Source of the DNA: Stachybotrys elegans
Lineage: Eukaryota; Ascomycota; Sordariomycetes; Hypocreales; Stachybotryaceae
DNA: 64,000 bases
Reading direction: 5' to 3'
Assembly (NCBI GenBank): GCA_020746835.1
Contig: JAGPNK010000004.1
Span: 806,001-870,000, forward strand
Position 1 is the first letter of the stretch; each line of letters starts with the position of its first letter. A program made the position numbers and the translations under genes. Under the pieces are notes generated by a model. It saw nothing but the letters and a program-made list of their open reading frames with translations. It ran no database searches and was not told the DNA's origin. Shown in pieces: positions 7,201-61,400 of this stretch.

Positions 7201-8838
7201 CTTGATCCGCTTTTCGAGCTCCTTGACCCTCCGCCTCAGCACTTTGTTGTCTCGCTGCAGCACGGCAAGGCCCGTCTTGAGATCGACATTCTCCGAAATC
7301 ATCTCCTTTATGCCTTCTTCCGAGAGCTTGTCCAGACGGTCGCTCAGAAACATGACCTTGAGCTTGAGATCGAAATTCTCTTTAGACAGTCGTTCAATGG
7401 TGCTGCTCTGCTCCTTTAGGGTCATTGTCCTTCCTCCAGCGCGCCCGAGCGTGCCTTGTATCGATGCAAGGCCACCTGAAGGCCTCCTGGGCGTCTCCAA
7501 TCCGCTCTTGAACTTGTACTCTTGGGCCAGCGACTCGGGAACCTGGACATTCCTCACGTGCCTAGCGATGACGGTGTCAGTAGGTGCAGGGCCGATGTTC
7601 TCCTTGGAAGCTTTCGGTGTTTTGGGGAGCTGCTCTCGACGAGGTCGCTCGGGGCTTTCAACCTCCACAAGCGGCTCAAGCTGGCCGGGGACGGTCTCGG
7701 TGAAGTCGTCAGCACCCATGCCGGACACCATGCTGCCCATACTAATGGATCGCGGCATCGGGTTGCTGGCCAGCCGTTGCATGCCGAGGGCGGGCACAGC
7801 GCCGCCGGACTGCAGGGCATAGTCCATTCCCATACCGACGGTCAAATCGCTGCCGTCGTGAGACTCGGGGTTGGTGGTGAAGGATGAGGTGGAGGATCTC
7901 TGGCTACCGAAGCGGCTACGGAGATACTTTGGGCGCTTGCTGCGCAGCGAATGGCCCGGGGTGCTGCCAGCATCGAGCCGGGGCTGGTCGTTCTCGCCTG
8001 CGGCGCTGGAGGTGGAGACGAAGGAGATCTCGCGGTCGTCGTTATCGTCGTCTTGGTTATTGTTGGAGTCGGTAGAGGCAGAGGTGTCGGCAGGGGTGTA
8101 GGAATCGTAGGCGGGAATAGATCGGGTAGCAGTAACGGCAGAGGTGGCCGTGCTGACAGCGCGAGAGATGGTCCTAGCCGCAGCGGCAGCTGTCGGGGAG
8201 GAGTCGAGTCTCTCCAGGCTGGAGGTGTTGTCGCCGACAATGGACGAATCATTTGGGTTGGGCAGAGGTCGCGGGGGCGGTGGCATCTGCATGGCGGCCT
8301 TATTGGGCGAGTCGAAAAGGTACGTGTCGTCGACCCCGCCGCCGCCTCCGTTGGTCGAGCCGGTCGGGATGGGCGACAGGGCGGGGAGGAAGCTAGACTC
8401 TACATCTCGCAGATGCTCGCGGACGGCCTCTTCGGTGAGGGAATCGTCGATGTCGCGGCCGGGCTCCATGGTGACGGCGTCGAAGTAGCTGCTGTCCGGG
8501 GGCAGGACGGAGCGACGAGCAGCAGCAGCAGGGGTAGCAGCCGTCGAAGGAGCCGCGACGGCAGGAGAAGGCGAATGTGACGGCGAGGTAGGGAGAGGCG
8601 GCATAGCAGCAGGGAGAGAGGAGGCGCTGGGCCGGGCAGAAGCAGGCGGCAGAGGCGGCGACAGGGTGCTGTTCCTGGCGGCGAGGGACGACGGATCCGG
8701 GGTTTCGTCGGTCGTGTCGTAGGCGGGGAGGGCGGAGGAATTGGCACCAGCATCAGCGAGCTGCTGGGCCGACAGCACGCGCCGAGCCGTGGATGCGCGC
8801 GACACGGGGCGATGGGGGGAGTCTTCAGCGTCGGCCAT
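4210..8838 (-). CDS. apsB: ApsB/Mto1-type microtubule-organising centre protein (Cnn_1N/CM1 domain, coiled coil)
   Basis: This frame encodes a very long coiled-coil protein. A disordered Ser/Pro-rich N-terminus of about 460 residues precedes a centrosomin-type CM1 segment (TLKEQSSTIERLSKENFDLK, then MFLSDRLDKLSEEG), which in Mto1 and ApsB recruits and activates gamma-tubulin complexes. Heptad-rich coiled coil follows for about 700 residues. The end contains a conserved LWHKLSAICGREW block and a C-terminal MASC-like motif (WLLRLRDMEYKLKMEREGRN) that in Mto1 and Spc72 targets microtubule-organising sites. A canonical 48-nt intron (5395-5442, GTATGT, CTAAC, CAG) sits in frame and has no stop, so the open frame reads through it. 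Splicing gives 1526 residues, read-through 1542. The family role is nucleating cytoplasmic microtubules at spindle pole bodies and septa, with effects on nuclear positioning. The ATG at 8838 is the first in frame. Confidence 0.88.
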   Translation of the reverse strand: MADAEDSPHRPVSRASTARRVLSAQQLADAGANSSALPAYDTTDETPDPSSLAARNSTLSPPLPPASARPSASSLPAAMPPLPTSPSHSPSPAVAAPSTAATPAAAARRSVLPPDSSYFDAVTMEPGRDIDDSLTEEAVREHLRDVESSFLPALSPIPTGSTNGGGGGVDDTYLFDSPNKAAMQMPPPPRPLPNPNDSSIVGDNTSSLERLDSSPTAAAAARTISRAVSTATSAVTATRSIPAYDSYTPADTSASTDSNNNQDDDNDDREISFVSTSSAAGENDQPRLDAGSTPGHSLRSKRPKYLRSRFGSQRSSTSSFTTNPESHDGSDLTVGMGMDYALQSGGAVPALGMQRLASNPMPRSISMGSMVSGMGADDFTETVPGQLEPLVEVESPERPRREQLPKTPKASKENIGPAPTDTVIARHVRNVQVPESLAQEYKFKSGLETPRRPSGGLASIQGTLGRAGGRTMTLKEQSSTIERLSKENFDLKLKVMFLSDRLDKLSEEGIKEMISENVDLKTGLAVLQRDNKVLRRRVKELEKRIKDDDERPSTARSGTSSTDQTAKMDDEDAAEREEELIYLRERVEEYAEEIERLRTENFHRESEKRKLTELVRSMSEHPADGLGRQDEADVWKDLLEQETARREQADEDNRRLRDEIFRMKQDVSGAASQTGGLHHTTNIYNITRKQRERAGSPSRPVSGLSGDVEGSNANLSAASTLVDELRRETEQLRHENAELRREVGAQTSMLTSRNREKERLYQEIEDLKMAQRRAGPAPSTIDSLLERSASRAGGHERSHSRGSARTRQTALEDDMEREDLENKLAEARDKVSEVKLRNQELQRELEACMEDFEVAIAGKREAEAAALNLQEDIDTAMNDLVALQAERDEALREQSEMENEFEALRKEAQEEIDVLEAEADQRTEEIQRLQADVAERSENFDALQEEMRVLSDSIIRLEDEQNNKHRRIQQLEEELDNANRELEELEQKLLESNEKNQRLLVQQESSQGEIAFLREEQEGDKIRIGDLEALLASVEQSVRDEKERARDLEIRLQQERAQREIVADREKEEVQQFVNELNREASAAKDEARRLRKSLSSREVEATEWKERLLELESNLREALGDLNGTRSSLLKVCLPFHASLQMLTPFQSIAKMQRELEDTVRELDKTKAAVNEKDRIIKQRDSLLESHALESRKLGELLEKERVSHRNTKSQYETFQKTHQHLSRTASTQDIRIAELESTRSQDRRKLTMLEQSARDQLLERNELLLQLWHKLSAICGREWANSNTLIDRQVLPSLEVVANRLPGFSKNLLAAVKAIETLVGSFQSRIKSVERDLQREYQTLENNLEVRTKKLDRLETIVRNSIASGTLPGSGDLQLRMARLEDAYRQLKVENATLRTATEVRSRAAYGSGGSADALVPTSLSGSPSPSVPRGPGEQDKDRSLRSSHGRASRTTTMTRAHTTTAATGTSPAGGMDVALPEEGGGSGNDNRWLLRLRDMEYKLKMEREGRNQDRQAARQRLGGLESENRDLRERVRRVADAEM

Positions 8839-51902: not shown

Positions 51903-53573
51903 ATGGAGATTGCTGGGCTTGCCCTCGGCGCAGTCTCGCTATCTTCACTATTCGTAACATGCTTTGATACCTATGACAAGATCAAGAGCATCCACGGTGC
52001 AGCCGGAGATCTGGCCGATGTGCTCTCGAGACTGGACTTGGAGCTGCAGAAACTCCACTACATCAACAAGAAGCACAGAGTCAGAGAGCTAGACAAAGAC
52101 GCCGAAGACGTCATGATTCTGGCCCAACACCACATCAACCAGCGCCTGGAGACGATATATTCTACAATCGCCCAATACCTGCCAGATGCCTCAGCGAAAC
52201 CGAGCACCCGTGGCTCAAGTGCAAAGCCACGCAAAGTACTGAAATGGGTTGCTAGCGATAGGAAGGCACTAGATGAGCAGCTGGGCAGGCTGCAAAACGT
52301 CACCGAAACACTATGGAGGCTTGCCACAACAGCGCCAGAGAGGGCGCGCGAGGACTATATTCTCAGGGCCAATGCGCTATCTGCCACGAATGCATCTCTG
52401 CTAGTCGCAACAGCGGAGCCTCTTACGAAGCAGTATGCTTCCATTGTCAAGGCCGCCAGAGTCAAGCAACTCCTGTTGCAGTGCATCGAGCGTGGCCCCG
52501 ATGTGTCCAGCAATTCACAGCAGCCTACCAAGCTTGCTCTGCCGCTTTCCTCGTTTGACTGGCGATCCAAAGACGCACGGGAAGTTGTCGACTTGCCGTG
52601 GGTGCCGGGCATTTGCGAAATGACCGAATCGTACCCCAGCGACATTCCCGTCATTGTGGAATGGAGAGGGCCCTTCATGGGACACAGAGACCCAAATAGA
52701 CGCCTTGATCGTCTGTGCGAGTTTCTCAGGGCCATGCACAGAGTTGATGAAGAGTCCGACTTCTCTGACATGGATCTGTATGCCCGGAATGCTGATTTTG
52801 GCATACTCAAGTGTCTTGGCTGGACCAAGTCGTCCGATACATTTGATCGCATCGGGCTGGTGTTCCAGTGTCCCCAGAGGAACTCTTGGCAGCCGGTGTC
52901 CCTGCAAGGCAAGATTCTTGAGATGCGGCCTAAACGCAGGCCTCCACCCCTGGGCGATAGGTTCGATCTGGCCTTTGGCATATGCAGTGCCGTAGCCAAC
53001 ATTATCAGTATTGGGTGGACGCACAGAGCAATCAGGAGTGACAACATGCTGATATTTGACCGCCGCTCAATCCAAAAGGTCTTCCTCGTGGGCTTCACAT
53101 ATGCTCGGCCCTGGGCGCCGGATGGGTCTGATGCGCCTCAAGAACTCTCGAATCTGCCTAATCATCGCGTCTTCGCTTTATACCGCCCAGGATATGTCCC
53201 AGAAGCCCAAGACAATGACGATGATTCGTCCGGGGACGAGGAAATGGGAGATCCGGAGCTGGCTACCCAATCAGAACAATCATCTTTTGGTCCGGGCTCA
53301 GCGGCATTTGACCTCTACGGGCTTGGCATTGTTCTTCTAGAGGTCGGCCTGTGGGAGACAGTCGAGAAGATGAAGGAGCGCAAAAAAGATCTTACGGTTC
53401 AGCAATTCCAAGCTTACGGGCTCAAAGATTTCTTGGCTCAGTTGTCGTATAGATGTGGAGATATCTATCGGGATGTGGTTGAAAGATGCCTGACTCCTGC
53501 CCACTGGAAGCCGGAAACTCTCACAGAGAATATCGGTAACTTAATCGGGGATCTGAAGCAGTGTAGAGCCTGA
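51903..53573 (+). CDS. HeLo-domain plus pseudokinase protein (MLKL-like architecture)
   Basis: An intronless frame from the ATG at 51903 (AAAACCATGG) encodes 556 residues. The start MEIAGLALGAVSLSSLFVTC and the following helical, heptad-like 200 residues fit the fungal HeLo domain, the membrane-targeting four-helix domain of HET-S and related to the MLKL killer domain. A kinase-like fold follows at about residues 220-550. Its catalytic loop reads HRAIRSDN (H374 to N381), so the HRD aspartate is alanine, and the DFG position reads VGF (V396), so the metal-binding aspartate is also lost. I therefore expect a pseudokinase. An acidic loop (NDDDSSGDEEMGDPE) lies in the C-lobe. The frame also stays open upstream to 51654, adding 83 residues that do not look conserved. 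A role in regulated cell death or non-self recognition is inference from the HeLo family. Confidence 0.8.
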   Translation: MEIAGLALGAVSLSSLFVTCFDTYDKIKSIHGAAGDLADVLSRLDLELQKLHYINKKHRVRELDKDAEDVMILAQHHINQRLETIYSTIAQYLPDASAKPSTRGSSAKPRKVLKWVASDRKALDEQLGRLQNVTETLWRLATTAPERAREDYILRANALSATNASLLVATAEPLTKQYASIVKAARVKQLLLQCIERGPDVSSNSQQPTKLALPLSSFDWRSKDAREVVDLPWVPGICEMTESYPSDIPVIVEWRGPFMGHRDPNRRLDRLCEFLRAMHRVDEESDFSDMDLYARNADFGILKCLGWTKSSDTFDRIGLVFQCPQRNSWQPVSLQGKILEMRPKRRPPPLGDRFDLAFGICSAVANIISIGWTHRAIRSDNMLIFDRRSIQKVFLVGFTYARPWAPDGSDAPQELSNLPNHRVFALYRPGYVPEAQDNDDDSSGDEEMGDPELATQSEQSSFGPGSAAFDLYGLGIVLLEVGLWETVEKMKERKKDLTVQQFQAYGLKDFLAQLSYRCGDIYRDVVERCLTPAHWKPETLTENIGNLIGDLKQCRA

Positions 53574-53757: not shown

Positions 53758-56700
53758 CTAGATCAACTCTTCCAAAGTCTGCATCTCGTTTTCCAGCACA
53801 TTCTCATCAGAGTTGTTATTAGGCTCGTCGACGTACGCCTCCGCGTCGTCTACTTCTGCTGGGTCACTCACGACGACCTGCAAAAAGCCATCCACCGTAT
53901 CCAACTTATACCGTAACCCCCAGCTCTCGACGTGCTTGTGAAACTGCGACAATGATATTGTATCAGGCTCTGGTACGTCGCGCTCCATCCTCTCGACCAG
54001 GCCTCCCAAACAGAGAATTCGCAGGCTTCCCCATAGCGGCTCGGGGCTGACAGGGAGCTGGAATTTGCGCGGCACTGAGAAGCCAAGCTTGACTAGAATG
54101 AAGACGCACATCATAAAGTACACAAAAAGAAAGGCAAATATCGCCCAATTGACGGCGATTTGAGGCCGCACGTTGAAATATCGAACTTTGAATGATTCGT
54201 TCCTGTCAAAGTCCTTGAGTAGATCCGTGGTCGAGGCAAGAGCTGATATATAGCCTGAGTAAAGCAGTGAGGCGGCTTCTGCCAGATCTCTCTCATCCGT
54301 TTCTGTCGTAGAGTCTGCGAACCAGAAGCGGTGGAGCAGATAAGACATCAAATCTCCCACAAACGCGGTATTGCTAAGAAGATCGTCGTCGGCGGTAATC
54401 CCATCGTTAAGGCGGCTTAAAGATTGTATAGATGCGTTGAGGGTCAGACTAGCTGCCGAGGCGATGTTCTGGTGCTCTTTGGACGCACCAAATGCATTGA
54501 ACTTTCCATTAACGACACTGACTCCGTCGTCAATGTGGTCACCATCGTAGTTTACCAGCATGGTGGCGGTTCCGGGCGTCGTCTTTACCACTGGTCTGCA
54601 TTGCAAACCCACGGCGGAGGGCATTTTATCGAATAACAAGTCCCCTATACCCACAGCTGCTGACACGGTGCCCTCTATCATTGTGATGGACCACTCTGGT
54701 TGGATAACCTCCGGGCTAGAGGTCGTGTTTCGAAGTAACCAGCGGCCGCATCGCGCCCTTTGCGGGGAGGGTAGTGACTTAAAGCCCCCGGGGTGGCTGT
54801 GTTCGTACGTTCTTAGGAGAGTGCATGGGTTAGATACTGATGATACTTCCTTGGAGGTGCCAAGGGCCAGATCGAGCTGCTCCACCTTGTACAGCACTTT
54901 GCCGGATATGTCGTGAGTTGAGGTAGTAATATTGGCACGGACTTTGTGACAATGGAGGCTTCCACTGATCAGGTGGGTATCATAAACGCCATAGAGTGCA
55001 TCACGAGTGGGCCAAGCCTCACTCTTGTTGAATGAAGCCAAGACACCGTTTACTGATGCCCAATCAGACCACTTCTTCGAGGATACCAGGCCCTCCACAA
55101 GATAAGGTAACGCATGTCCGGTTGAGGAGCCAATGATGAAAGTAGACTGGGAAATGTTTTCTCTCCAACCAAATGGCCTTGTCCCCGTGAAAGTCTCAGT
55201 CGGAAGAGCCTTATAAACGGGAGTGTAGAGGCAAGTCGAGGCCAGCGGGATTGCAAGACTTGCGACACTTGCCAAAGCAAGCACACCAACTTCCCAGTGC
55301 CTATGTGCAATCGCCCTCCCGAGGGGAAACCAGCTATTCCAGTAGTCGAGTGTGATGCTGAGGTGTGCTGGCTGAGAGGTTTTCATTGATGCCCAAGGCT
55401 GACGCGTGACATAGAATAGAAAAAGAAGCGGAAGCCAGAAGAAGGCTACGATGAACAACAAGGTGGCTGGAAATATTGAAGAGATGAGTATCCAAAAGAT
55501 GCTGACCTCTCCGATTGTGCCGCCGAGATCTAGAAGAATGATGAGCTGTTGGGCGAGTCGGGGTTGAGAGTAGTCCGAGGACGCGAGGGAAGAAGTCAAT
55601 AGCATAGGTAGTTGGAGGAGGGCGAATAGAAGTAGAGCAATGGCTACACACAAGCCCACTCCGCGAGATATATACCATGGCCAGGTCGGATGGCCGTTTT
55701 TTTGGGTTGCCTCGTCATTTCCCTCTTCCTCTTGTTTGCTCCTAGTTCCCGAAACTAGACGGCGGAAATGAAATGCATTAGCATGATCCATAAGTTTAAA
55801 AGAGGAGGGGGGAGGGGGGGTATGAGGGCCATTACAATCCATTCTGGGTCCGGGACTGTCTAAGCGCCATCCACTCTTCCCTTGCTTCTCATGAACCGAC
55901 CAGTATCCGACATGCAAGCCATGCGGCGGTTTAAGATGCGTGATAAAGGGGAAGAACTGTATAAGCCCGACCTCCTTCACCAGCCAATCTTTGACTGAAC
56001 TGTGTCGTAGCAGGGCTGCTCTGCTCGCAATGGATGAGACGTTCCAACGAAACACATACCCTTCATAGTAGTCTTCAAAACTCTCTCTGCCGTAACGCTG
56101 AGTGGCTGCCAGGGAGATGAAGAGAGCTGAACCTGTTATGAAGAAAAGGGAAGCGAAGCCCAGACCAGACTGGAATACCCACCGATGCATCCAGCTAGCC
56201 TCAATTCTCGCTCCTGTTGTGAAGTGCAGAATCCTTGACTCATTGCCTAGCTCCATCGCTGTCGGTAAGTTCTCTTGCAGCATTAGCCCAGCAGCTGTCG
56301 ACAGTTTACCGACGAACTCGTAGAGTGCGGAATGACCTATCAGTACCAAACAACCAACCGGACGGGCCCGGCCCCAGTATGCATCCCTAAACTCCTCGGT
56401 AAGATGGGCCAACGACCAAGGTCTCTGACGAGCGGTTGCCTGCGTAGCTTGCTGTAAGAATGCTTCACTTAGGCCAAGACTCGAGTCATCGTCCAGATGA
56501 CGACTCTTGTAGACCTCTTCTAGGGGCTCAATTCGATCTATGGCCACGCTTGCTGGTCTAACCGGTGCTTCGTTATGAAGCTTGCCAAACACTTTTGATA
56601 GCTCCAAGGTAGCATCGACCAAGGAAAACTTGGCCATACAGCTAGCTGCTAGTATAGACGATGGCTGGATCTCGGCGTCTTCCTGTAGAAAGGACCGAGA

Positions 56701-57963
56701 CGTCGTCGCGAGAAACAGCTTTGATCCACAGTCGCCTGGCGATTCTCGGTTGGTCGTATGAGTCGCATGCGCCCATACAGGCTTGTATGCGACTTTTCCG
56801 CCGGCATACGAGAGGAGATCTCGGTAATGGTTGATGAGGCCAAGTACCGCTTCCTGGGCGGGAGCGTTAAGTTTGGCGTGGCGAGCCTCTTTCTCCAACT
56901 CAAGTAGATGTTCGAGGACGGCTGCATGCATATTTTCGCCAACTTTGATGCTATTCAATACCACCTCGGTCGAGCAACCGGATGCGTCGCCTATGGTGAA
57001 GGAATATGAACCACCTTCTGGGGATCCAAGTACAGAGATTTGGTCCTGGCTAATATACTCGCACTCAAGTCCAGACCCCAAGGCTTCCGTTTTGATTTGC
57101 CACTTGTGGCTATATTGCATTCGGTCGAAGGGTATTTGCTTTGTTGGCAAAACAGGCTTGTAGACGCCAATCCTGTCGCCATAATCTTCTTGACCATTCC
57201 AATGGTGCTCGTTTGGGCCACGTCCGGCCCCTGGTAGATTGAAGGTAATTGAGTCGGGAAACTGAGCTTTGATATCACTGGACATGACAATCCATCTATC
57301 CGCCGAAGCGCCTGACCATACATTTACTCGCTCGCCAGTCTCTTTTAAGTCGTATAAGGAAGGTAAAGATCCACTGAGCGTAGGGATAATGTCACCCCAC
57401 TTGGATAGAGTGGCATAACCGATAGGGTCATTGACATCCGTCTCCTGAGTGTGGTGGGCGAGATCATAGGAGTGATAAATTGGCTGGCATAGATAGGGAG
57501 ATGCGCAGCAGGTTAGAAGAAGAAGCCACGCGAAAACCCGTTCTGAATGATTGTTGTTCATTGCCCTGGGCAGCTGGTGTATGTGGTGAAGCTCAACCAT
57601 GACCATGCGGCTGACAACAATAATGAGGAGAGCACCTAAGACTGCTGACAAAATTCGCCCATAGGATGAGGAAGTGGACAAGGATGAAACTGGCTCCGTG
57701 CTCAGACGAGATACCAGCGCATTGTGGAGAATGAAGGTCGTGAAAACGTAAAGTAGAATGAGCACTTGCCGCTGTTTCCATCTGGGTAGACCCATCCATT
57801 GTCGAGAGCTTTTTGTTAGGACCGGAGCCGACTCGATCAGTCTCTTATAGGATGTGAATACATCTATATTTAGTCGAGGAGGATCCGGTTCGGTCGCTGC
57901 AGTGGGCTCCGCATCATCCAAGTCGCGGAGAGACACAGCGTCAGTGTCGAGTCGAGGATCCAT
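53758..57963 (-). CDS. Large polytopic membrane protein of unknown family, 1401 aa
   Basis: A single-exon frame from the ATG at 57963 encodes 1401 residues. Hydrophobic segments occur at about residues 66-86 (VLILLYVFTTFILHNALV), 104-124, 143-160, 595-618, 766-792, 819-852, 891-913 and 1271-1295. Two large polar stretches, about 160-595 and 913-1270, carry N-glycosylation sequons and scattered cysteines and are probably extracellular. Each is preceded by about three helices and followed by one, so the protein may be an ancient tandem duplication (inference). The C-terminal 100 residues are acidic and cytoplasmic. I recognise no transporter, receptor or enzyme signature. It is convergent with the HeLo-pseudokinase gene (about 185 bp between stops) and divergent from the kinase-ankyrin gene. 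Confidence 0.75.
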   Translation of the reverse strand: MDPRLDTDAVSLRDLDDAEPTAATEPDPPRLNIDVFTSYKRLIESAPVLTKSSRQWMGLPRWKQRQVLILLYVFTTFILHNALVSRLSTEPVSSLSTSSSYGRILSAVLGALLIIVVSRMVMVELHHIHQLPRAMNNNHSERVFAWLLLLTCCASPYLCQPIYHSYDLAHHTQETDVNDPIGYATLSKWGDIIPTLSGSLPSLYDLKETGERVNVWSGASADRWIVMSSDIKAQFPDSITFNLPGAGRGPNEHHWNGQEDYGDRIGVYKPVLPTKQIPFDRMQYSHKWQIKTEALGSGLECEYISQDQISVLGSPEGGSYSFTIGDASGCSTEVVLNSIKVGENMHAAVLEHLLELEKEARHAKLNAPAQEAVLGLINHYRDLLSYAGGKVAYKPVWAHATHTTNRESPGDCGSKLFLATTSRSFLQEDAEIQPSSILAASCMAKFSLVDATLELSKVFGKLHNEAPVRPASVAIDRIEPLEEVYKSRHLDDDSSLGLSEAFLQQATQATARQRPWSLAHLTEEFRDAYWGRARPVGCLVLIGHSALYEFVGKLSTAAGLMLQENLPTAMELGNESRILHFTTGARIEASWMHRWVFQSGLGFASLFFITGSALFISLAATQRYGRESFEDYYEGYVFRWNVSSIASRAALLRHSSVKDWLVKEVGLIQFFPFITHLKPPHGLHVGYWSVHEKQGKSGWRLDSPGPRMDCNGPHTPPPPSSFKLMDHANAFHFRRLVSGTRSKQEEEGNDEATQKNGHPTWPWYISRGVGLCVAIALLLFALLQLPMLLTSSLASSDYSQPRLAQQLIILLDLGGTIGEVSIFWILISSIFPATLLFIVAFFWLPLLFLFYVTRQPWASMKTSQPAHLSITLDYWNSWFPLGRAIAHRHWEVGVLALASVASLAIPLASTCLYTPVYKALPTETFTGTRPFGWRENISQSTFIIGSSTGHALPYLVEGLVSSKKWSDWASVNGVLASFNKSEAWPTRDALYGVYDTHLISGSLHCHKVRANITTSTHDISGKVLYKVEQLDLALGTSKEVSSVSNPCTLLRTYEHSHPGGFKSLPSPQRARCGRWLLRNTTSSPEVIQPEWSITMIEGTVSAAVGIGDLLFDKMPSAVGLQCRPVVKTTPGTATMLVNYDGDHIDDGVSVVNGKFNAFGASKEHQNIASAASLTLNASIQSLSRLNDGITADDDLLSNTAFVGDLMSYLLHRFWFADSTTETDERDLAEAASLLYSGYISALASTTDLLKDFDRNESFKVRYFNVRPQIAVNWAIFAFLFVYFMMCVFILVKLGFSVPRKFQLPVSPEPLWGSLRILCLGGLVERMERDVPEPDTISLSQFHKHVESWGLRYKLDTVDGFLQVVVSDPAEVDDAEAYVDEPNNNSDENVLENEMQTLEELI

Positions 57964-58487
57964 GGCTTGGAACTGTTGGACATTTAATTAGAGCACTCTG
58001 AACAGTCTCGCTCAGACACAAACAGCAGAAGACTGTCGTGGCCGAATGATGATTGACTTGAATCGCTTCCTCAGTGTAAGAAATAGGCCTTCATCCCTAG
58101 ACGAGGCTCTGGCCCCCGCGATACATTAGGCTGACAGATGCGGATAGGATCAATATGTTTCCGCTCGCATGCAGTCATGCGGCACTGTTTTGGCCCCCAA
58201 GCACGTATTTCATGTGACTCCGTATGCGCATGCGGCTGACTCGATCACCGACTGTCGTCAGCCGCGATCGGCAAGGGCCTTGGAACCTCAGCTTGGCAGC
58301 CTGAATGATCCAAAGCTCGATAGAGCATACAAATCACAAGGAATCAAAGCTTCTGGGCCGTGACAATCACCCTCTTTCTATTTGAATTATAGTGCTCGAA
58401 CCGAAGAGACAGAGTGCGGTCCATCGTCAGTAAGGGTTGTGCTTTCTATATTCTCGCCGTTAGACGTCCAGGAGAGTGCGAGTCACG
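57964..58487. promoter_or_regulatory. Divergent intergenic region between the 1401-aa and kinase-ankyrin genes
   Basis: The 524-bp region lies between two start codons on opposite strands and probably serves both genes. I see no clear TATA box or named operator; the only open frame is 64 codons. Confidence 0.5.
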
Positions 58488-61400
58488 ATGCCACGCCTTA
58501 ACCTCGCCGAGGCGGCAGCCAACGGATCGCCATTTGACATAGAAGGTCTGCTGGCTCAGGCAGAAGAGGAGCAGCGCGCACCCCGAGAGTCGCTAGACGC
58601 GACCCGGCCTTCAGACCCTCTCGACGATGAGGCTCTGATAACAGAAGTGGACGATACCACCAACATGGTGGGGACGGCAGACTCGTGGTACTCGGATCTA
58701 GCTTGGCAAACTTCCAATTTGAGAAAACAGGCAGGAGAGCCCTGGGACTTCATGGCAATGGTGTCTACAATATCTCAGGTATACAAGCGAGGTGCCTACA
58801 TCCGGATGCTGAACCTTGACCGCGACGCCTGGGTTGAGCTTGGGCGTGGCGGAACGTTTCATGTCAGCAGTGCGACTCACAAGATTTCTACTATTCTGCC
58901 AAAGCGAAGCCAAGACAAGGAAACCATCTCTCAGCGGCTTGTATGGAAGCGAACATTTGGCGAGCACCCAACATCTGCAGACATTCGAAGCTTCATTGGC
59001 GAACTGAGGGTGCTGGATCACTTCCAGGCACACCCTTTCATCGTGGATCTGTGCGGAATCGGGTGGTTCGAAGCCCAAGGGGTTGATCGACACGAGCTGC
59101 CGAAGCCCGCTATTCTGCTCGAAGAAGCCACAAGTACCCTCGACTCCATCCTGAGTCCGGACTACTCGCTTTCCTTGGAGGACATGTTGAGGATCATAGC
59201 CGAGGTCGGATTGGCAATACAGGCCCTGCATTCGGCCAAGATAGCTCATGGCGATGTGAAGCCCGCCAACATCCTGTTGTTTCCTCTCATGATCCCTAGG
59301 GACGGGGTCATTGTAAAGTCATACACGGCTAAGCTGTCCGACTTTAGCTCCGCAGTCTTTGACACAGGTGTCGAGCAGCCCTTCCCTAAGGGCACCGAAG
59401 GATACATGGCCCCGGAAGTTGAAGTTGCTTTCAGGGGCGAACACGATATGGCGAATATGGAGGCCATTTCCAAGACGGACATTTGGTCTTTTGGAGTGCT
59501 CTCGGCTGTTTTGCTTTGCGGCTCCCGTGCGGTTCTCAAGCCAGAGAGGACCGCAGAGCTGAGAGTGGAGCGTATATGCTCTGCCGTCAACGAAGTCTTG
59601 GAGAATTCGGCAGCCGAGGGCACCATCCTGCGCGATGTTCGCGTCTTATTAGACAAGTCTGTCCAGATCACGCCAGCCTCCCGCTTTCTAGACCCTATCG
59701 TCAGCTGTCTCAGGGCCTATCATCGGTCCCCTCATCAAGCTCCAGATCACCCCGGCCAGCTCCACCTCGAGTCGACTTCCCGTCTGATGATCAGCTACGA
59801 AAACTTCAAACACGTGCGCGGCCCAATCAAGGAATACATAGTGAAAGAGCTCGAGGTTGTGGTTAACAAGCAAGACGCCAGGGTGGCTTCGGCTTTATGG
59901 GAGTTGGGACTGTTGTATCTTTCTCGCTATGCCGATCCCGATGCCTCAATCTCCCGTGGTCTTGAGTATGTTCGACAGTCAGCGGACTTGGGCGACGTGA
60001 GGGCTCAATGCATGGCACATCGCCTTCATGAAGCCTTTCAAGGGCAGAAGTCGCCAGAGATATCCGGTCATATCTGGTCCGACTGGCTTCTCAAAGCAGC
60101 ACGAAATGGCTCTCTCATTGCTGCAGAAGAACTCAGCTCGGCTAACGCTTTGCTGGCCCAAGAGGCACGGGCTTCTTATGCGGCCTCCTGCTACGAGGTA
60201 CTATACAGTGATGAAGGTGAACCACGCGAGTCTTCAAGTATGTTGCCAAATCGAAAAAGCACGAGATTGCACCAAGCTGCTGCTACTGGCGACTTATCCC
60301 TTGTCAAGTCTCTCTTGGCCAACACATCCATCAACATTGATGCGCGCGATGCAGACGGTGACACTCCATTGCTTTCGTCTTGTCGGTTTGGTCAGCCAGA
60401 CACGGCTTTGCTTCTATTACGAAGCGGAGCAGATGCCTCTCTAACCAACAATCGTGGGGAGAATGGGCTTCACTTGGCATGGTGTTTTGATGATGCCCGC
60501 TGTGAAAGCGTAGTCAATGGTCTCATTACTGGCGGCGCCAGTCTTTGGGCAGAAGCGTTATCGTCAACAGCCGCTGCAGACATGGATATACTGCCTATAG
60601 TATCTGGCACACCACTTCAACGGGCTGCTGCACGTCGTCGGCTTGATCTTGTCTTCATCTTCCAGAGATATGAGAATACCATGGAGCCCAGCAACGGGAA
60701 CAAAGCTAGGCGGATATTCCTATACGCCTTGAGACTACATGACACCAGGCTTCTCGAATACATGATAGACTTTTGCAGAAATCACCCCTCCTCAGACTCT
60801 CGGCTCGTCAACCTCACGGATACGAAATGGTTTTACCAGGGAACCCACCTGTCTCTACCCCAAGCTGCCTGTGCAGGCTGGGTCTCGGGTCATCGGAACG
60901 GGTGCGACCTCCCGCTGCAGATTTGGCTTGCCTGTAGCTTTGGTGGGGACTGGGAAAAGGTTCTGCAAGACTCTCTACAAATCTTCGTGGACTTCTATAT
61001 CCACGAGCAGGAGACCCCGGGCCCGGGCATAGACAAAGCCATCTTGTGGGCCTTTGAGGAAAGATATCACGATACCTTTGAGCGTCTCTACCATCTCAGG
61101 ATACGAAGGCTGAAGGAGGTCTCGGTCCTTGCCAACACTACCGCGCTCAGATGGGAATTTCACGATGCCATCAACGTGGCTGTCATGTAGGCACTCGTAC
61201 ATGGATATCTCGCTTACACAATATACTAACTTTGGGCGTAGACCGCCACAAGAAGCCTACCTTATTGACCTAATGTTCTGGAAGCCAAGTCGGGGTACAT
61301 TGGCTCAGCAGGCATTATTATCGGGTGACCGCAGCATGTTTCGACTTTTAACACGACGATATCGGGCCAACACGCGATTGCCAGCGCCTACTCCCACGCC

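Follow-up and report, generated by a model that had tools for sequence, protein, structure and literature searches.

The window analysed here is a 64,000-nucleotide stretch of the Stachybotrys elegans contig JAGPNK010000004.1 (positions 806,001 to 870,000), and it contains, at positions 51903-53573 of the forward strand, an intronless gene whose 556-aa product, P0001, matches the HeLo domain at its N-terminus and is predicted to adopt a kinase fold, lacking both catalytic aspartates, over its C-terminal half. The frame is open from ATG to TGA over 556 codons. An upstream start, in the open frame that reaches back to 51648, was rejected on the evidence of the homologues, whose first residue corresponds to the codon at 51903: the start column is common to seven of the eight full-length rows of alignment A2, P0009 having six additional N-terminal residues, and M1 is invariant. 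The first letters of these eight rows read MExAG in five, MDxAG in two and MEPVS in one. The features of the gene are the following.

51903..53573, + strand: complete coding sequence, single exon, stop codon counted in; full-length homologues
51909..51965, + strand: residues 3-21, where hydropathy peaks, candidate membrane-inserting HeLo segment; KD19 means
51915..52343, + strand: HeLo domain in two profile pieces (residues 5-96 and 74-147); PF14479, 2wvn and helix-bundle model
52332..52490, + strand: linker helices 144-160, 164-171 and 179-196, placed as the MLKL brace; predicted in both models
52524..53570, + strand: predicted pseudokinase domain, residues 208-556
52659..52661, + strand: E253, in the strand that precedes helix C, presumed position of the VAIK Lys; Glu in 139 of the 142 rows covering it
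53022..53045, + strand: HRAIRSDN (residues 374-381), catalytic-loop equivalent, HRD Asp replaced by Ala; sequence, alignments to TTBK1, IRAK4 and an active-kinase profile, family counts
53091..53099, + strand: GFT, DFG equivalent, metal-binding Asp replaced by Gly; alignments to TTBK1 and IRAK4, family counts
53148..53150, + strand: S416, kept Ser/Thr and candidate phospho-acceptor; Ser or Thr in 143 of 144 rows and 9 of 9 representatives
53190..53309, + strand: acidic, Ser-bearing activation-segment insert, residues 430-469; 11 acidic and 0 basic residues, low predicted local distance difference test (pLDDT) score

A predicted kinase fold without the catalytic aspartates

A sequence-only reading of this DNA had proposed that the C-terminal part looks like a kinase whose two catalytic aspartates are replaced, at HRAIRSDN and VGF (residues 396-398). 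That proposal rested on motifs, since no Pfam kinase family scores above its cut-off in P0001 alone, the only match being APH at an E-value of 0.23. The predicted structure contains a kinase fold spanning residues 208-556 and the family profile agrees with it, so that the proposal is now supported from two sides. A chance motif match was rejected because the fold model and the family profile concur. In HMMER alignments to TTBK1 and IRAK4 the HRD Asp falls on A376 and the DFG Asp on G397; P0001 has neither of the two aspartates expected of an active kinase. The profile alignment to active kinases fixed the HRD column, began C-terminal of the VAIK site and slipped past the DFG, for which reason the DFG placement relies on TTBK1 and IRAK4. 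The assignment of E253 to the place of the VAIK Lys comes from strand order in the model and not from a kinase alignment, the N-lobe being doubtful in the family-profile alignment.

Both aspartates are also missing in the 12 other rows of alignment A1, which are 35-63% identical to P0001, and the loss is thus more than chance. Family counts were made on 146 of 150 collected proteins, with P0014, P0021, P0023 and P0024 excluded as long and distant, as non-family or as a duplicate of P0025. Because a single search with one paralogue supplied 120 of the 146 (P0025-P0144), representatives were used as well, 10 at less than 40% and 14 at less than 50% identity, pieces with fewer than 120 letters in the kinase half being left aside. 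Among 144 rows the HRD Asp column holds Gly in 121, Ala in 17, Ser in 3, and Glu, Asn and Asp in one each; the DFG Asp is present in none and is Gly in all 144, followed by Phe in 143. All 144 rows retain the HRD His, 141 of 144 have the Asn that follows it, and the helix F Asp is conserved in 142 of 142. The 10 representatives below 40% identity have the HRD Asp once, the DFG Asp never and R402 in every case. Since the loss spans such diverged representatives, the pseudokinase state, as read from these alignments, is long maintained in the family.

HeLo domain and linker

The N-terminus had been likened to the HeLo domain of fungal incompatibility proteins, and the likeness holds: PF14479 matches P0001 at an E-value of 1.3e-10, with 41.9 bits against the curated Pfam cut-off of 23.2, the best stretch falling short of half the length of the Pfam model. 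The family profile matches the HET-s structure 2wvn (E 2.7e-10), and the predicted model of the domain is a helix bundle that aligns to 6zz1, 6zvo and 6ka4. In the 48 rows of alignment A4, W115 and D119 never vary, and at least 90% of the rows have G5.

The hydropathy maximum of P0001 lies at its N-terminus, with a KD19 mean of 1.98 from residue 3 against 1.54 at most elsewhere in the protein. The N-terminal helix begins at residue 2 in model 1 and at residue 13 in model 2, and residues 1-8 have a pLDDT below 50 in both. In the family, counted on 130 of the 150 collected proteins, 74 of the 130 have their hydropathy peak at the N-terminus, and the hydrophobic N-terminus is weak in many relatives. 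Behind the HeLo domain, the three linker helices may be the equivalent of the MLKL brace.

The activation segment and S416

Among the 452 columns filled in 100 rows or more, column 416 ranks first in its share of Ser/Thr (Thr 122, Ser 21, Cys 1). Ser or Thr, with both present, stands there in all nine cluster representatives that have the column, and in the representatives only column 333 is an equally uniform Ser/Thr column among the 177 of the kinase half. S416 sits within the activation segment, 17 residues past the end of GFT, and in these alignments it is the best-kept hydroxyl; this, and the Gly in place of the DFG Asp in every row, are what is new here. RIPK3 phosphorylates MLKL at T357 and S358, shortly after GFE351 (PMC6013482).

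The insert that follows S416 differs between proteins in both length and sequence. In 16 of 16 rows of the clade it has more acidic than basic residues (few in P0006, P0011 and P0017), whereas in eight distant rows the region is more basic and only 11-26 residues long, P0013 being even. G397 and R402 are invariant.

Family, genome copies and spread

P0001 has at least 13 relatives at an E-value of 0.001 in a single-sequence search, itself excluded. The three protein searches were capped, at 7,996, 7,996 and 7,994 scored candidates, and the paralogue search gave at least 360 relatives, of which 120 were listed; 119 of these 120 carry precomputed labels for both HeLo and DUF7580 (PF24476). On its own, P0001 has no DUF7580 match at an E-value of 10 and is for that reason seen as a diverged member, while seven of the 13 A1 proteins match DUF7580 at an E-value of 1, the best at 8.9e-6. 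HeLo joined to a kinase-like domain is, by these profiles, a large and little-studied fungal family in which P0001 is not unique. A profile search of the contigs gave 24 DUF7580 and 20 HeLo matches in the genome, and at least six loci pair HeLo with a DUF7580-type or pseudokinase domain: C34 (the P0001 gene), C12:2298, C1:3973, C1:5311, C5:1370 and C23:1207. Three of these pairs are weak, with DUF7580 under cut-off at C1:5311, HeLo barely over it at C23:1207, and the domains in two frames at C5:1370. At the last (C5:1370755-1372509) HeLo and pseudokinase lie in adjoining frames with one stop between them, indicating either an intron or a broken gene, and its kinase part (P0150) is the sole family row that has the HRD Asp.

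Named kin include proteins of Phialocephala subalpina (58% identity), Sarocladium strictum (47%), Hypomontagnella monticulosa (37%) and Trichoderma virens (35%). The best named match is thus Phialocephala, of the Leotiomycetes, ahead of other Hypocreales; the tree agrees, with a support of 0.46 for the node joining P0001 and P0002. On this sequence evidence the spread looks patchy, as in non-self genes, or as after transfer. Two longer proteins differ in build. P0014 (Phialocephala subalpina PAC_18697, 923 residues) has an active-looking kinase followed by a DUF7580-type pseudokinase under the family cut-off, an order that resembles plant tandem kinases. P0021 (1009 aa) has a kinase-like domain with the catalytic loop HGNINSSS and then a long C-terminal region.

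Comparison with MLKL, HET-S and other known systems

The order noted from the sequence at the outset, a killer-type domain followed by a pseudokinase as in MLKL, was recovered with the profile match and both predicted folds, so that neither outcome set out in that reading as its refutation occurred, and the term MLKL-like is supported, on sequence and model grounds, for the build and for the kind of catalytic loss. The models give P0001 a build resembling that of MLKL, with a helix bundle, which in MLKL is the four-helix executioner, then linker helices and a kinase fold, and the alignment of the HeLo model to 6zz1, 6zvo and 6ka4 belongs to this likeness. MLKL has HGK at the HRD and GFE at the DFG (PMC6013482, PMC5104457), where P0001 has HRA and GFT, Gly replacing the DFG Asp in both; the GFx likeness is striking, yet such a change can arise repeatedly. 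The two may differ in that MLKL keeps the VAIK Lys, at whose presumed place P0001 has Glu; no counterpart of RIPK3 was found for P0001 in this analysis.

The idea that MLKL is the nearest kinase by sequence was not borne out. MLKL is absent from the three PDB sequence lists that run in full to an E-value of 10 (2, 47 and 25 rows) and from the 60 best of 984 and the 60 best of 387 PDB matches, and a piece with a motif thought close to that of MLKL had no PDB match at all. Nor does MLKL occur in the 50 displayed rows of the comparison made with the whole-chain model. The PDB kinases listed include LIMK1/2, IRAK4, KSR, BRAF, TTBK1, RPS6KA5 and DCLK1. The E-values in the best 60 of 387 are not wholly safe, because the designed repeat protein 4yxx ranks fourth there at 2.9e-7.

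P0001 shares an N-terminal HeLo domain with HET-S of Podospora, which carries a prion-forming region (PMC10197012). In contrast to HET-S, the predicted kinase fold of P0001 runs to the last residue, which would leave no tail where HET-S has that region, though no search aimed at amyloid motifs was made, and the trigger of P0001 probably differs. HeLo-DUF7580 proteins, labelled "Prion-inhibition and propagation" or "Protein kinase domain-containing protein" in their source records, share with P0001 the domain order and, in most rows, the H...R-S-x-N and GFx motifs; P0001 differs in its acidic insert, which in the distant rows is the short, more basic stretch described above. Among plant HeLo-kinase proteins, Pm13 of wheat is predicted to be kinase-active and the AtMLKLs are pseudokinases (PMC10951266).

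In fungi, some HELL domains are joined to kinase or pseudokinase domains in a manner reminiscent of MLKL (PMC12881547, a 2025 review), and a fungal MLKL, that of Basidiobolus, has been named (PMC11476962), so that the architecture of P0001 and the comparison with MLKL are already in print; the available parts of these two accounts concern HELL rather than HeLo and contain no residue analysis, switch residue or name of the P0001 gene. Homologues of the MLKL transporter class were found, among early-diverging fungi, only in Glomeromycotina (PMC8778642), and HeLo in fungal NLRs and HET-S has been treated repeatedly (PMC10197012, PMC9815663, PMC5485727, PMC4986451). The literature searched, mostly surveyed in outline, showed no functional study or death assay of a fungal HeLo-pseudokinase, and no paper in it names DUF7580.

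Proposed mechanism and alternatives

On balance we lean towards P0001 being a pseudokinase-gated cell-death effector that acts in the manner of MLKL. The protein would be intracellular, with the HeLo bundle as its membrane-damaging part and the catalytically dead kinase fold as a gate that restrains the bundle at rest by way of the linker helices. The trigger would be a change in the activation segment, perhaps phosphorylation of S416 by another kinase, or the binding of a partner, upon which HeLo would be released or clustered at the plasma membrane and the cell would die. Autoinhibition, phospho-switching, membrane damage and cell death are proposed here by analogy with HET-S and MLKL, and P0001 may have a role in a non-self response.

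Plant pseudokinase partners of NLRs bind foreign or modified ligands, and in the main rival explanation, unlikely in our estimate though the strongest of those considered, the pseudokinase half of P0001 is a bait or sensor for such a ligand, whose binding alone frees HeLo. The patchy spread, with Phialocephala above Sarocladium and Trichoderma, would suit this explanation, though the node support is low, as would the variable activation-segment insert and the presence in P0014 of a related pseudokinase behind an active-looking kinase, like plant tandem kinases. However, the near-invariant Ser/Thr at 416 and the invariant G397 and R402 favour a kept internal switch over a fast-changing surface.

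We consider it quite improbable that P0001 is a HeLo-bearing scaffold or regulator that does not kill, both domains being kept as binding modules only: the absence of family death assays from the outline survey, the weak hydrophobic N-terminus of many relatives and the partial match to the HeLo model are compatible with it, but W115 and D119 are invariant, G5 is nearly so, and the N-terminus of P0001 itself is strongly hydrophobic. That P0001 is an unusual active kinase, catalysing through other residues as some kinases with an altered HRD or DFG do, is hardly credible, for despite the conserved HRD His, following Asn and helix F Asp, the catalytic and metal-binding aspartates are both gone, the latter in every row, and the VAIK Lys is seemingly Glu.

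If pseudokinase gating is true of P0001, fungi would have two triggers for HeLo, amyloid templating as in HET-S and an MLKL-like pseudokinase switch; the latter would become open to plain genetics in haploid moulds, with S416 and GFx as testable targets, and a function would be suggested for DUF7580. Only tentatively, and with more doubt than belief, do we extend this to fungal HeLo-pseudokinases at large, which would be a third, widespread group of MLKL-type death effectors next to the animal and the plant ones; in them a catalytically dead kinase that retains a Ser/Thr in its activation segment would be the trigger, as the amyloid tail is in HET-S. In the boldest form of this idea the fusion would predate the divergence of animals, plants and fungi, making these proteins true kin of MLKL.

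Neighbouring genes and other genome matches

No NLR or known death family was found among the 18 of 73 window frames checked against Pfam, and no tRNA was found in the window with bacterial settings. A kinase-ankyrin gene (58464-61190, + strand, first ATG at 58488) lies 4.9 kb downstream of the P0001 gene, with a DUF3433 gene (53758-57987, - strand) between the two; the catalytic motifs of the kinase-ankyrin gene look intact (HGDVKPAN, SDFS). Elsewhere in the genome, PF17111 has 33 matches on contigs C7, C15, C19, C22, C32, C46 and C47, and those on C15 and C32 and one on C47 score identically, which hints at recent copies.
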